Shown: piece by piece, positions 5,068 through 55,700 of the stretch
How positions within the stretch are numbered: position 1 is the stretch's first letter
Layout: each line of letters begins with the position of its first letter
Source of the DNA: Eggerthella sp.
GTDB taxonomy: Bacteria; Actinomycetota; Coriobacteriia; Coriobacteriales; Eggerthellaceae
Assembly (NCBI GenBank): GCA_030540085.1
Contig: JAUNWY010000003.1
Location: 1-64,000, forward strand
DNA length: 64,000 nucleotides
Direction of reading: 5' to 3'
Notes under the pieces: generated by a model
Databases searched by the model: none
What the model was told of the DNA's origin: nothing
The model's input: only the letters and a program-made list of their open reading frames with translations
Program-made: the position numbers and the translations under genes

Positions 5068-5319
5068 TGGCAAGAAACGGCTCTTGTGCATTCCCAAAGG
5101 GGGCTCGGACAGCAAAAGGGCCTCTCCATGGCAAGATATCGCTGAAATGTATGCTCAAACGGCTTGTTTTTGGCAAGATAGGCGGCTTATGTATGTTTTA
5201 AGCCGTGAAAAGCAGTGAAAAACAGTGTTGGGGAATACATCTCGCGAATTTCTTGCCCGGAAGAGGCCCTTTTGCCGTCCGAGCCCCCTTTGAGAATACA
5301 TTTGAGCGATATCTTGCCA
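5068..5319 (+). repeat. Family B element, copy 2 (diverged, 252 bp)
   Basis: The same order of segments as copy 1, but more diverged: TGGCAA at 5068, then a spacer with GCAAAAGGGCCTCTCC, TGGCAAGATATCG, a short spacer, TGGCAAGATAGGCGG, a central spacer, and two reverse units ending CTTGCC and TTGCCA (5319). No 41-bp satellite is recognisable on its left, unlike the other three copies. The flanking 4941-5067 is otherwise empty apart from the hairpin at 5004. Confidence 0.7.
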
Positions 5320-7840: not shown

Positions 7841-7918
7841 CCGCCGCGAAACTGATCACGATGCTACGCTGGGTCCGCCCTGGCCAAATCGTCATCCCAA
7901 AGCTGCTCCGAGACTCCA

Positions 7919-8103
7919 GAAACAAAAATCTCGACATTTTTGCAACATTTTTGCGATTGCGGATTGTTGCGAGCTTCCCAATTGCGGATTGAGGCGCAAA
8001 AGCGCAGGTAATCGGTTGCATGACGGCCTGTTTTCGCTTTGTGGGGACGGAAGAGAGTCCGCAATCGCAAAAAAGTTGCAAAAACGTCTCAATTTTTGTT
8101 TTC
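7919..8103 (+). repeat. Family A terminal-inverted-repeat element, copy 1 (185 bp)
   Basis: The left end begins GAAACAAAAATC and contains TTTTTGCAAC-TTTTTGCGATTGCGGA. The right end is its reverse complement over about 45 bases with few mismatches, ending GTTTTC at 8103. The interior carries GGCGCAAAAGCGCAGG (a small GCGC-AAAA-GCGC hairpin) followed by TAATCGG. Copies at 39736 (inverted) and 55416 match ends and interior, and a right half is at 24727. It encodes no conserved protein. Confidence 0.85.
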
Positions 8104-8205
8104 ACGATGGGTGGATTGCCCCAACGGGTAGATTTCGCAATGGGCGGATCGCCTCAACGGGTAGATATCGTAATGGGCGGATCGCCGCAACAAGGCAAAT
8201 CATGC
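8104..8205 (+). repeat. 16-17-bp tandem satellite beside family A copy 1
   Basis: Units begin at 8106, 8124, 8140, 8157, 8173 and 8190 (steps 18, 16, 17, 16, 17) with consensus A-Y-GGGYRGAT-N3-CN-CA, e.g. ATGGGCGGATCGCCTCA. They directly abut the right end of the element. Confidence 0.75.
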
Positions 8206-12219: not shown

Positions 12220-13185
12220 GTGGGCTTCGTAGAGGATGAAACACCCTGGTGCGGTGGGCGTGTAAGCGCGCGTGTTCGGTGCGTGCGCGCGAACAACCCC
12301 AGCCCCATGACGTACGTGGGAACCAATTCGTGGATCGTGGCAGAGCCAGGTGCCAAGGAATGTGTGGTGATAGACCCCGCCCCTGCCGGCGAGCAGGTTC
12401 AGCGCATCCTGGCGACATGCGTTGAGGCGGGGCTGCGAATTGGGGCTATTGTTGCCACGCACGACCACCCCGATCACATCGAGGGAATTCCCGAACTTGT
12501 TGCGGCAACGGGCGCCCCGGTGTACGCGCCGCGCACGAGCCGTATCGAGCAGTTGCTGCAGAAGTATGCGTCTGCGAAGCGTGTTGGTGCGAAGTGCGCG
12601 CGCTCGGAAGGTGCCGAGGACGCAGGTGCGGTCGGAGTTGCGGCAACGGCCGAATCTGATTCGGGGAGTTCGCCTCATTCTTGCGAGGAAAAAGCTGGCT
12701 GGGGCGCTGGCGTCCAAATACTTCACGAGGGTTCATTCCGTCCCTTTGAAGGGGCGCCGGAGTTTGAGGCAATCGCCCTTCCTGGCCATTCGGAAGATTC
12801 GGTGGGCTTGCTTCTTCCTGCAGAGCAATCTCTGTTTACGGGAGATGTACTGTTTCGCCATGGCCCCACGGTGGTGTTTCATCCCGATGGGGTGCTGGCC
12901 AGTTATTTCGCCAGCCTTGACACACTAGAGCAGTTGGTTCGCGAAGGTCGGGTGCAGTGCTTCTATCCCGGGCATGGGTATCCCATCGACGACCCGCTGC
13001 CCATCATCGAAGCCACGCGAAAGCATCGCGTTGATCGCTTGGACCAGGTGAAGGAAGCGCTGAATGCAGGCACGCCCGCCGAACCCGATGCGTTGTTCGA
13101 CGTGGTGTATCGGGGCGTGAACCCTGCTTTGCGCATGCCTTCCATTCGAAGCATCCGCGCGCAGTTGAAGTTTCTGGGAATATAG
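12220..13185 (+). CDS. Metallo-beta-lactamase-fold hydrolase (LACTB2/glyoxalase II-like)
   Basis: 321 residues from a GTG with AAGGAG upstream. The zinc motif THDHPDH is at about residues 83-89, with further ligands in LPGHSEDS, FTGDVLF and PGHG, as in single-domain MBL thioesterases and nucleases such as LACTB2. A low-complexity insert of about 50 residues (about 125-175, rich in Ala, Gly and Ser) interrupts the domain. The C-terminal helix-rich part resembles the LACTB2 tail. The last codons (Gly-Ile-stop) lie inside a family C palindrome, so that repeat has probably supplied the present C-terminus. Likely co-transcribed with the Nudix gene. Substrate unknown. Confidence 0.87.
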   Translation: MGFVEDETPWCGGRVSARVRCVRANNPSPMTYVGTNSWIVAEPGAKECVVIDPAPAGEQVQRILATCVEAGLRIGAIVATHDHPDHIEGIPELVAATGAPVYAPRTSRIEQLLQKYASAKRVGAKCARSEGAEDAGAVGVAATAESDSGSSPHSCEEKAGWGAGVQILHEGSFRPFEGAPEFEAIALPGHSEDSVGLLLPAEQSLFTGDVLFRHGPTVVFHPDGVLASYFASLDTLEQLVREGRVQCFYPGHGYPIDDPLPIIEATRKHRVDRLDQVKEALNAGTPAEPDALFDVVYRGVNPALRMPSIRSIRAQLKFLGI

Positions 13186-13209
13186 GGGCAGGTCCCATTT
13201 TCCCGCTTA
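13175..13209 (+). repeat. Family C REP-like palindrome, copy 1
   Basis: TGGGAATATAGGGGCAGGTC... ends TTTTCCCGCTTA, matching the units at 33830, 33930 and 34028. It overlaps the stop codon of the preceding gene. It is followed by a hairpin that resembles the one following copy 2 at 33.9 kb, so palindrome plus hairpin seem to travel together. Confidence 0.75.
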
Positions 13210-13228
13210 GCCATAGCGCATAAAGAAA

Positions 13229-15827: not shown

Positions 15828-16260
15828 GTGTCCTCGCGGCGCAGTTGGCCCCGCAGCCGGTGTTGCCCGCGGCCGACTGCCCCATCCCGTAGTCGGCAGG
15901 CAGCGTACCAACGCCGTCCCGCGCCCCGTGACAGAGCCCCGCAACCGACAGACCGCGCACGCCCGCTGCCGACTGCCTCCGTGTTCCAAAGGACGGCGCA
16001 CTCGAAGTGGGCGGCTCCGCTCCGACGCAGCGCATACCTGCACCAGCCCCGCGTCTGGCTAGCGGACAGTGCGGCGGTGCGTATGTGTGCCCGAGCCGTG
16101 ACTGTGCGCACCAATGCCGCCCTGCACCCGGCATGCCGTACGCGTCCACCGCCGACGGCCCCGCGCCCCGTGACAGAGCCCCGCAACTGGCGGGCCGATC
16201 GCCGATACCGCCCTGCGCCCGGCGGGCCGTGCGCGCCCGCCGCAGCCCCCGCGTCTGGCT
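15828..16260. repeat. GC-rich interspersed repeats
   Basis: The same words recur at irregular distances: CGCGCCCCGTGACAGAGCCC (about 15930 and 16165), GACCGCGCACGCCCGCTGC, ACCAACGCCGTCC and CCCGCGTCTGGCTAGCG (16043 and 16250). Related words occur again at 16860-17340, i.e. on the other side of the family B copy. Long open frames here follow from the absence of AT-rich stops and are not genes. Confidence 0.6.
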
Positions 16261-16317: not shown

Positions 16318-16565
16318 TGGCAAGGTGCGGCTGCGATTCGTCCTCAGGCGGCCAGGTATGGCGATTCGTATCCGCGATGCGTTCCACGGAGGCCGGTGCC
16401 ATGGCAACGCGTGTTCGCGATGCGCTCTCGGCTGTTCGGCAACGGCAAGATGCTCGCGAAATGCGCTCCTCAGCGTCTGGCAGTGGCAATATGTCGACGC
16501 TATGCATCCCCTAGCGCCTAGCGATGGCGATATACCGACGCTATGCGTTCCTGGGCGGCCATCCG
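16318..16565 (+). repeat. Array of six 41-bp satellite units leading into family B copy 3
   Basis: Units start at 16318, 16359, 16402, 16443, 16484 and 16525 (steps 41, 43, 41, 41, 41), and the 241-bp element begins exactly 41 bases later at 16566. Each unit opens with TGGCAA or TGGCGA and ends ATGCGTTCC or ATGCATCC before a spacer of about 15 bases. The spacers vary more than the units but are not unrelated. Confidence 0.8.
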
Positions 16566-16806
16566 TGGCAATTTTCTCGCTTCATGCATCCCAAAAGTGG
16601 TCCCGGACGGGAAAAGCGCCCCTTCCTGGCAACATATCGCCGCCGTGTATCCAAAACGAGCTGGCTTTGGCAAGATCTGCGCGCCATGTATCCGAAAAGC
16701 GCCGCAAACCGCCTTTCGGGAATGCATAGCGCGCAGACCTTGCCAGGAAGGGGCCCTTTTCGCCGCACTGACCCCTCGAATCATGCATGGGGCGTGAATC
16801 TTGCCG
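16566..16806 (+). repeat. Family B element, copy 3 (241 bp)
   Basis: The closest relative of copy 1: the order of units and spacers is the same, including GACGGGAAAAGCGCCCC, AAAACGAGCTGGCTTT, CGCAAACCGCCTTTCGG and the reverse-complement spacer GGCCCTTTTCGC. It opens TGGCAATTTTCTCGC and closes with AATCTTGCCG. Confidence 0.8.
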
Positions 16807-16859: not shown

Positions 16860-17340
16860 TGCAAGCGCGCTTTGCATTGAGGCCGACGGCCCCGCGCCGC
16901 GACCGGCAGGCAGCGCACCAACGCCGTCCTGCGCCCAGCGGGCCGCGCACGCCCGCGGCCGACGGCCCCGCTTTCGTGACGAAGCCCCGCACCAGTAGAC
17001 CGCGCACGCCCGCTGCAGCCACCGCGTTTGGCGAGCGTACGGTACGGCACTGCGGCACACGTGTGCTTGCCCGAGCAGCGCCCAAGCTGCGGCTGCCTGC
17101 AGCGGCCTCCGCGGTCGGCGCTTCTTGGCAGCCGCCCGCCCTATGGCGCGTCTCGTTTCACAACTGTCCGCGCTCCCGCGGCACGCCTGGTCCCATAACC
17201 GCTCGCCCCGCAGCTGACGTTGCGGCGAATGGACGGTGCGGGCGTGCCCATCCCACTGCAACCGCCCGCTCTACGGCAACCGCCCGACCCATGGCGCGTC
17301 CCGTTTCGCAACCGCCCGCCCCACGCACGTCCTGCCCCCC
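16860..17340. repeat. GC-rich interspersed repeats
   Basis: Variants of the block at 15828-16260: CACCAACGCCGTCCTGCGCC, GGGCCGCGCACGCCCGC, GACGAAGCCCCGCACC, and CGCACGCCCGCTGCAGCCA. From about 17150 a different set of words recurs (CGTTTCRCAACYGYCCGC, CCGCCC-TATGGCGCGTC). No gene is supported. Confidence 0.55.
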
Positions 17341-19812: not shown

Positions 19813-20053
19813 TGGCAAGATTCGCGCGCCGTGCATGATTTGAGGGGCCTGTGCAGCGAAAGGGGTCCCTCCCTGGCAAGATCTTCGCACGGTGCATTCC
19901 CGAAAGGCGATTTGCGGGGCTTTTCGGATGCATGGCGCGCATATCTTGCCAAAGCCAGCTCGTTTTGGATGCATGGCGCGTGAATCTTGCCAGGAAGGAG
20001 CTCTTTTACCGTCCGAGGCCCCTTTTGGGATGCACGGAGTGAAAAAATTGCCA
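19813..20053 (-). repeat. Family B element, copy 4 (241 bp, inverted)
   Basis: Reverse complement order of copies 1 and 3: TGGCAAGATTCGCGC at 19813, spacer with GGGGCCTGTGCAGCG, TGGCAAGATCTTCG, a centre with GGATGCATGGCGCGCATATC, TTGCCAAAGCCAGCTCGTTT, and the end ATTGCCA at 20053. Confidence 0.8.
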
Positions 20054-20174
20054 CGGATTGCCTCCCGGGAACGCATTGCGGCAAAATCCTGCCATTGCCA
20101 GGCACCTGAGAGCGCATAGCGTCGATCTTGTCATGGTCAGGTGCTTGAGAACGCATAGCGTCGCCATATTGCCG
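20054..20174 (-). repeat. Three 41-bp satellite units beside family B copy 4
   Basis: In the orientation of the element, units end at plus-strand positions 20094, 20133 and 20174 (steps of 41, 39 and 41 from the element end at 20053). As with copies 1 and 3, the satellite is on the canonical left side only. The remaining 200 bases to 20375 hold the promoter of the next gene (TTGACC with TATAAA nearby) and nothing else seen. Confidence 0.7.
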
Positions 20175-33832: not shown

Positions 33833-33868
33833 GTGGGAATATAGGGACAGGTCCCATTTTCCCGCTTA
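33830..33868 (+). repeat. Family C REP-like palindrome, copy 2
   Basis: TAAGTGGGAA...TTCCCGCTTA encloses ATAGGGACAGGTCCCATT. It overlaps the stop codon of the preceding gene, as copy 1 does at 13175. Confidence 0.8.
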
Positions 33869-33886
33869 CGCCATAAAGCAAAAACA

Positions 33887-33929: not shown

Positions 33930-33960
33930 TGGGAATATAGGGACAGGTACCAGATTCCCA
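33930..33960 (+). repeat. Family C REP-like palindrome, copy 3
   Basis: TGGGAAT...ATTCCCA with the interior ATAGGGACAGGTACCAG. Confidence 0.8.
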
Positions 33961-34027
33961 CTTGCGTCACGGCGGTTGATGTCGAGCCTTACGCGCATTT
34001 TTCATTGCAAAGGGGATTTGATCTGCA

Positions 34028-39529: not shown

Positions 39530-39735
39530 TTGACGGAATTTGTCCTAGTGCCGCCGCTGAGGTCTTGCACGCTTTTCGTGGGATCCGTTCCGTTGGGGGC
39601 TGTCGGGTCTTGCCTGCCTTTCGCGGGGTTCGCCCTGCCGGGGTCGCCGAGAGCTCACATGTCTTTCAGGGGATCCGCCCTGTTGGGGCGATTCGCCCTT
39701 TGTTGGATCTGCCCTATTGCGACAATCGGTCCATC
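39530..39735 (-). repeat. Degenerate satellite beside family A copy 2
   Basis: In the orientation of the inverted element, this block consists of degenerate units such as AGGGCGAATCGCCCCA and ACAGGGCGGATCCCCTGAA, resembling the 16-17-bp units beside copy 1. It lies on the same (canonical right) side of the element. Confidence 0.55.
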
Positions 39736-39922
39736 AAAAACAAAAATCCCGCCATTTTTGCAACTTTTTTGCGATTGCGGACTCTTTTCCGCTCCCTCTA
39801 AGCGGAAATATGCTGCTGTACGCCCGATCACCTGCGCTTTTGCGCCGTGATCCGCGATCAGAGGAGTCCATGACAATCCGCAATCGCAAAAAAGTTGCAA
39901 TCTGAGCCGATTTTTTGTTTTC
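39736..39922 (-). repeat. Family A element, copy 2 (187 bp, inverted)
   Basis: It begins AAAAACAAAAATCCC and ends GTTTTC, with arms containing GCAACTTTTTTGCGATTGCGG. The interior, reverse complemented, has GGCGCAAAAGCGCAGGTGAT, matching copy 1. On its other side (about 39957-40085) GATGG-led units of 28-36 bp recur; the rest of the gap to 40286 is empty apart from the -10 of the next gene. Confidence 0.85.
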
Positions 39923-40272
39923 AGACTCCCCGCAAAGGGTTCGGGGCGGCATCGGGGATGGTACGGAGCAAGTCTGGCGCTGCGAGATGGTACGGGAATG
40001 GCGCAAGTCCGGCGTTGCGGGATGGTCTGGGTGCAGCCCGGGTCCACGCTGCGGAATGAATTCGGGGCGGCCTGGGTGTAGCACCGTGGAGCCCGCGTAT
40101 TCTCTTCGCCATAGCGGTGTTGTCTGTATGGCGACACTTCGGGCGAATGTCGAATGCCGTATCGAACAACCGAAAATCCTCATCGAGCGCGCGTTCGGGA
40201 TTGATCTTCGCCTTCCTATGTGTATCCCTTGTGCAACTCGTGAACGTTTGCGGGGCGCATTTGGCCCTGTGT

Positions 40273-55270: not shown

Positions 55271-55415
55271 GCTGGGAAATATCGCAGCAGTTTCTTAACT
55301 TGATGAGAAGAGCGTGCTAAGAATCCGAAAAAATATCGGCGGATTTGCCCTCGTGCGCCAACACGGCTCCGCCGCTCCATGACGTTAAGCCCAATAGCAC
55401 GGTTTCAGGAACGCA

Positions 55416-55601
55416 GAAACAAAATAGCAGGCAGTTTTGCAACTTTTTTGCGATTGGCAACTACTGCGGGGACTTCTGAGCGTTGGCAGCAGTGAAAAAG
55501 CGCAGCAAATTGACTGTTTGGAGGCTTATTTCCGTCTTTTGCGAGTAGGAGAGGATTGCTAATCGAAAAAAAGTTGCAGAAAGAGCAAGATTTTTGTTTT
55601 C
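55416..55601 (+). repeat. Family A element, copy 3 (186 bp)
   Basis: Same orientation as copy 1. Begins GAAACAAAATAGC, ends TTTTTGTTTTC, arms with TTTTGCAACTTTTTTGCGAT and its complement; interior AAAAAGCGCAGCAAAT matches the core of copy 1 less closely. The preceding 55271-55415 has no other feature. Confidence 0.8.
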
Positions 55602-55700
55602 AAAACGAGTGGATAGCTGCGACAAGGTGATTACCGCAACTGGCAGTGCCCCACGGGGTGATTTCTGTGGTCGATGGTGTTGCAGTGGGAGATTATGCCG
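55602..55700 (+). repeat. 16-17-bp satellite beside family A copy 3
   Basis: Degenerate units at 55605, 55622, 55639 and 55653 (steps 17, 17, 14), e.g. ACGAGTGGATAGCTGCG and ACAAGGTGATTACCGCA, on the same side as for copy 1. Confidence 0.6.

Follow-up and report, generated by a model that had tools for sequence, protein, structure and literature searches.

At positions 16566 to 16806 of the window, by which we mean the whole 64,000-bp stretch of DNA analyzed here (C3:1-64000, the start of contig C3), lies a 241-bp core on the forward strand in which a 26-bp unit, TGGCAA-N12-RTGYATYC, occurs five times. Three forward units, F1 (TGGCAATTTTCTCGCTTCATGCATCC, 16566 to 16591), F2 (16627 to 16652), and F3 (16668 to 16693), are followed by two on the reverse strand, R1 (16720 to 16745) and R2 (16781 to 16806), where F and R denote the unit in its two orientations. 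With start-to-start distances in base pairs, the layout is F1-61-F2-41-F3-52-R1-61-R2. Each unit is bipartite, with half-sites TGGCAA and RTGYAT whose starts are 18 bp apart, and a logo of 80 units shows positions 2 to 5, 20, 21, and 24 to be invariant or nearly so. The core starts with TG and ends with CA in most copies; here R2 carries the end variant CATGA and forms a sharp 3' boundary of the element.

Other copies occur in the same window. A second 241-bp core lies at 472 to 712 on the forward strand, with upstream array units at 390 to 415 and 431 to 456, and an inverted one at 19813 to 20053 on the reverse strand, whose F1 side has array units at 20069 to 20094 and 20149 to 20174. A diverged 252-bp copy on the forward strand (5068 to 5319) has unit spacings of 61, 42, 62, and 61 bp, its F3-R1 distance thus being 62 rather than 52 bp; an upstream array was looked for at this copy and none was found. 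An earlier note on this DNA had reported these four intervals and lengths and had described three forward and two reverse units in fixed order in each, all of which we confirmed.

The earlier note had placed the limits of the element at 241 bp, which holds for the conserved core; the full element is longer, because a variable array of further forward units with a 41-bp period lies upstream of F1 in most main-group copies. At the copy described above, this tandem array of diverged forward units spans 16318 to 16550 on the forward strand with a period of 41 to 43 bp (unit starts at 16318, 16359, 16402, 16443, 16484, and 16525). Between zero and seven array units were detected per copy, always on one side of the core only, and arrays of different copies align after a 41-bp shift. 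On the downstream side, homology does not continue past R2 in most copies; two copies carry one further reverse unit on that side. Two array-type units 41 bp apart are also present without a core at C3:123127-123193 (locus L011), about +612 and +653 from F1 and about 0.4 kb beyond the copy at C3:122515.

Several other repeats share the window. GC-rich degenerate repeats (around CGCGCACGCCCGC) flank the element at 15938 to 16251 and 16896 to 17024. A third short family, TGGGAATATAGGGRCAGGTCCCATTTTCCC, with a palindrome like GGGACAGGTCCC, occurs at 13175 to 13214, 33834 to 33873, and 33930 to 33969. The second family, an inverted repeat of about 188 bp (AAACAAAAATC...GATTTTTGTTT) with about 20 copies on nine contigs, is found at 7915 to 8104, 39735 to 39923, and 55414 to 55602, and it served as our control.

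Copy number, genomic setting, and species restriction

A pattern search of the 1.56-Mb assembly, which is 80% complete, recovered 16 copies of the element (six on contig C3, nine on C9, and one on C14), 14 of which were aligned. The unit pattern TGGCAAN12RTGYRTYC is matched exactly at 61 places, every one of them in or beside an element; this lies far beyond chance, the same pattern read backwards as a control having no match in this genome. A weight matrix built from the 80 core units, when scanned over C3, C9, and C14, returned 113 sites close to elements, plus 10 elsewhere in 567 kb, the latter a rate similar to that in control sequence. The earlier note had proposed a genome-wide search and had reasoned that units occurring in random order elsewhere would speak against a real entity; no units occur above background beyond the element loci, and the entity stands. 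Its suggestion that the whole element was duplicated is likewise supported, in that two cores 166 kb apart are 97% identical and their downstream flanks are unrelated.

By gene prediction, all 16 copies are intergenic, in convergent, divergent, and tandem settings, and the orientation of the copies showed no preference relative to genes. The flanking genes are ordinary and unrelated and have no common theme; they include those for a heavy-metal ATPase with a metal-sensing repressor, CstA, an AMP-binding enzyme, MurT/GATase, the DNA polymerase III alpha subunit, an ATP synthase subunit, BioY, Hsp70, and citrate synthase.

The element is restricted to one species among the genomes searched. To judge by gene content and the composition of the class, the host is likely an actinobacterium, and probably one of the Coriobacteriia. 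The unit pattern has no match in three congeners and zero to three matches in the remaining relatives, and a search of 397 further genomes of the class found no element. Contigs in GTDB gave 14 single unit matches, which look like chance, and none with multiple units. In congener G003 there is no element copy, and the approximately 380 kb compared there held no comparable dispersed repeat. Searches for a phage, plasmid, or viral origin of the element gave no match, and a search of the open literature on repeats in this bacterial class found nothing relevant. The element is a new species-restricted modular intergenic repeat, broadly of the BOX or BIME kind and with an anatomy of its own.

Position on the chromosome

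The earlier note had remarked on the density of four copies in 20 kb, which is correct, and the wider pattern is a restriction to three origin-side contigs: all 16 copies lie on C3, C9, and C14, which make up 36% of the assembly, and the other 64% is without a copy. The naive probability of such confinement is about 1e-7, and the second inverted-repeat family, used for comparison, has 8 of 20 copies on these contigs (Fisher p = 0.0002 versus 16 of 16), both p values being too optimistic because the copies are not independent. C9 holds oriC: dnaA lies at 264.4 kb, the GC skew turns near 260 kb, and parS sites cluster at 253 to 286 kb. Its nine copies are all within 150 kb of dnaA, at 88 to 149 kb on one side and 34 to 44 kb on the other. 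Reversed C14 can be placed directly before C3, since the starts of the two contigs share a 55-bp inverted overlap. Both contigs of this joined stretch, with its seven copies, show right-replichore GC skew, and in G003 homologues of some C3 genes are near homologues of C9 genes. The placement of C3 and C14 on the origin side thus combines GC skew, the 55-bp overlap, and partial synteny in a genome that is not closed.

Identity between copies does not drop with distance, and the clustering is therefore not a matter of simple local duplication. Part of the clustered region is a single stretch in a congener, however, so that historical spread followed by rearrangement could yield the same map. Enrichment at rearrangement breakpoints was not borne out, since 3 of 15 gaps with an element are syntenic, compared with 26 of 113 long gaps without one. 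With the inferred placement of C14 and C3, 12 of 16 copies are co-directional with the replication fork, which is not significant (p = 0.08). In comparison with G003, C9:115-177 kb (L022 to L025) matches the other chromosome arm, and homologues of C3:15131-15661 and C9:118656-119987 adjoin there; both break ends carry an element in the present genome.

Conserved half-sites and spacing

The three most diverged copies, on C9 at 115, 117, and 165 kb, reveal which parts of the element are kept. Relative to the main-group consensus, their half-sites are 0.87 to 0.91 identical, their unit middles 0.47 to 0.57, and their spacers 0.48 to 0.53, the last being nearly random (0.42 to 0.44 when shuffled). 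Unit spacing is held to about 1 bp in 15 of the 16 copies, these three included; the exception is the 252-bp copy, in which F3-R1 is 10 bp longer. Distances between units of the same orientation are 41 bp (35 times) or 60 to 61 bp (30 times) and rarely 40, 42, 43, 51, or 54 bp, larger values reflecting a weak sub-threshold unit in between or extra units further off, and facing units are 52 or, once, 62 bp apart. These distances (for units of like orientation 41, 51, and 61 bp, for facing units 52 and 62 bp) step by about one helical turn, which suggests that proteins may sit on one face of the DNA.

We hypothesize, with a probability of roughly 0.45, that the element is a modular, species-restricted docking array on the origin side with multiple sites for a putative sequence-specific DNA-binding protein, which is the best supported mechanism among those considered here. 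The bipartite 26-bp unit would be the binding site of this protein; five such sites in fixed spacing and orientation would form the core, and weaker sites with a 41-bp period would extend it on one side, the bound proteins being lined up along one face of the helix. Copies may have spread between intergenic sites by copying or recombination while being kept to the origin side, and the resulting nucleoprotein complexes could plausibly act on chromosome organization or segregation. A search for the ParB family found one ParB only, an ordinary one common to the three congeners. That congeners lack the element speaks against its having an essential role in the chromosome. That protein-bound arrays mark or organize the origin side, as a lineage-specific system apart from ParB-parS, Noc, and SlmA that would have been acquired after the split from the congeners, is a more specific proposal that we consider unlikely.

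A mobile element as the main rival

The next best reading, and the main rival of the docking array, is a nonautonomous mobile element of a MITE- or BOX-like kind, in which a transposase would bind the units, as happens at transposon ends that carry multiple sites, the mover would now be lost or lie in the unassembled part, and selection for mobility would keep the half-sites and their spacing. We regard it as a serious possibility, although a somewhat less probable one than protein docking. Dispersal over intergenic sites, restriction to one species, and absence from the three congeners all agree with mobility, as does the 97% identity of cores 166 kb apart. Intergenic gaps with an element are also much longer than syntenic gaps in G003 without one (1766 versus 354, 1339 versus 917, and 1005 versus 564 bp), but the extra DNA exceeds the core and its edges are imprecise relative to the congener. 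The ends read TGGCAA/TTGCCA in most copies, with the TG...CA termini mentioned above, but the left end is variable and a target-site duplication was not seen by eye at any copy. A check for an autonomous relative, covering limited transposase families in the 80% complete genome, found a single truncated rve ORF 2.7 kb from the C14 copy and no Y1/RAYT transposase. This short ORF (L028:17794-18180, or C14:77794-78180) matches the C-terminal part of rve integrase domains. Finally, a transposon would not usually stay on three contigs, and the other inverted-repeat family is spread over nine. The two leading readings differ in what they predict for sister strains and for a pull-down.

Comparison with known repeat families

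Among described repeats, BOX of Streptococcus pneumoniae, in which boxA and boxC have boxB modules between them, is likewise intergenic and modular, includes a tandem module that varies, is predicted to fold strongly, and has spread within a single species group (PMC3049150). Judged by its architecture, our element is BOX-like, since it combines fixed and variable tandem modules and is intergenic and dispersed; it differs in its five-site core, its array on one side only, and its confinement to three contigs. REP sequences and BIMEs, associated with RAYTs, are likewise extragenic, with regularly spaced units in both orientations, and BIMEs bind several proteins (PMC2817692). Unlike them, however, the present unit lacks the palindromic form with a GTAG-type tag, there are 16 copies rather than hundreds, and the unit order is fixed. 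Assignment to REP/BIME was rejected on the unit logo, with its unlike half-sites TGGCAA and RTGYAT and no tag of GTAG or CGTC type, and a RAYT/REP system was rejected after a search of the 80% complete genome for PF01797 (Y1) gave no match.

The BrickBuilt MITE of Porphyromonas gingivalis, with 19 copies in one strain, is also species restricted and intergenic, with a short tandem repeat and inverted ends, but its 23-bp repeats have no spacers (PMC4596501), whereas the 26-bp units here are separated by spacers of 15 and 35 bp and have conserved half-sites and facing sites. In contrast to the sites of SlmA and of Noc, a ParB-related protein (PMC5540599), the sites here form ordered clusters and are absent from congeners. 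A site of the parS or Noc type was rejected, given that no ParB paralogue was found and given the separate location of canonical parS sites (C9:253-286 kb), and a CRISPR array was rejected because units occur in both orientations and fixed order and spacers are common to several copies.

Predicted folding

The earlier note had proposed that a single strand could fold into a large hairpin or cruciform. The predicted fold is indeed very stable (z of -9.7 and -9.5 for RNA of the plus and minus strands and -7.8 for DNA), but folding as the purpose of the element is disfavored. If pairing were selected, a better match would be expected between the arms of one copy than between arms of different copies, and this is not seen for the unit arms: identity within and between copies is 0.761 versus 0.762 for F3:R1 and 0.632 versus 0.621 for F1:R2. 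The pairing of spacers that the earlier note described is present but imperfect, with S1:S4 identity averaging 0.56 within copies (0.557 versus 0.514 between copies; p = 0.0008), an excess due largely to the 252-bp copy, which alone reaches 0.89. Counted on the alignment, 70.5% of pairs are formed compared with 68.9% in shuffles, and this small excess can be explained by the relatedness of the copies. Mismatches between the arms are fixed at several positions in 11 to 13 of the 14 copies.

A structured noncoding RNA or a functional DNA cruciform, in which the long stem would be the selected feature, therefore seems very unlikely to us: the stable fold, the weak pairing excess, and the slightly better S1:S4 pairing within copies count in its favor, but both strands fold equally well, the orientation of the element is independent of genes, no Rfam match was found at the elements, and the unit arms lack compensatory changes, on which ground we rejected it. 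The hairpin predicted here arises mostly as a side effect of the facing arrangement of conserved sites. Least probable of all is a neutral satellite-like repeat, homogenized by gene conversion and without function or mobility, which would fit array units whose number varies from copy to copy and whose register shifts by 41 bp, as well as the recombination suggested by distant cores of high identity, but neutral decay would not leave half-sites and spacing persisting amid nearly random spacers.

Implications

Whichever of the leading readings applies, the element shows that even a striking long inverted repeat can exist without having been selected for its fold. If the element is mobile, it would be an unusual one, in which a five-site arrangement is kept and one part of the chromosome only is occupied. 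If a host protein binds it, the copies would represent clustered docking arrays that a small bacterial chromosome has recently acquired on its origin side, and the origin of new chromosome-organizing sites would become directly testable.
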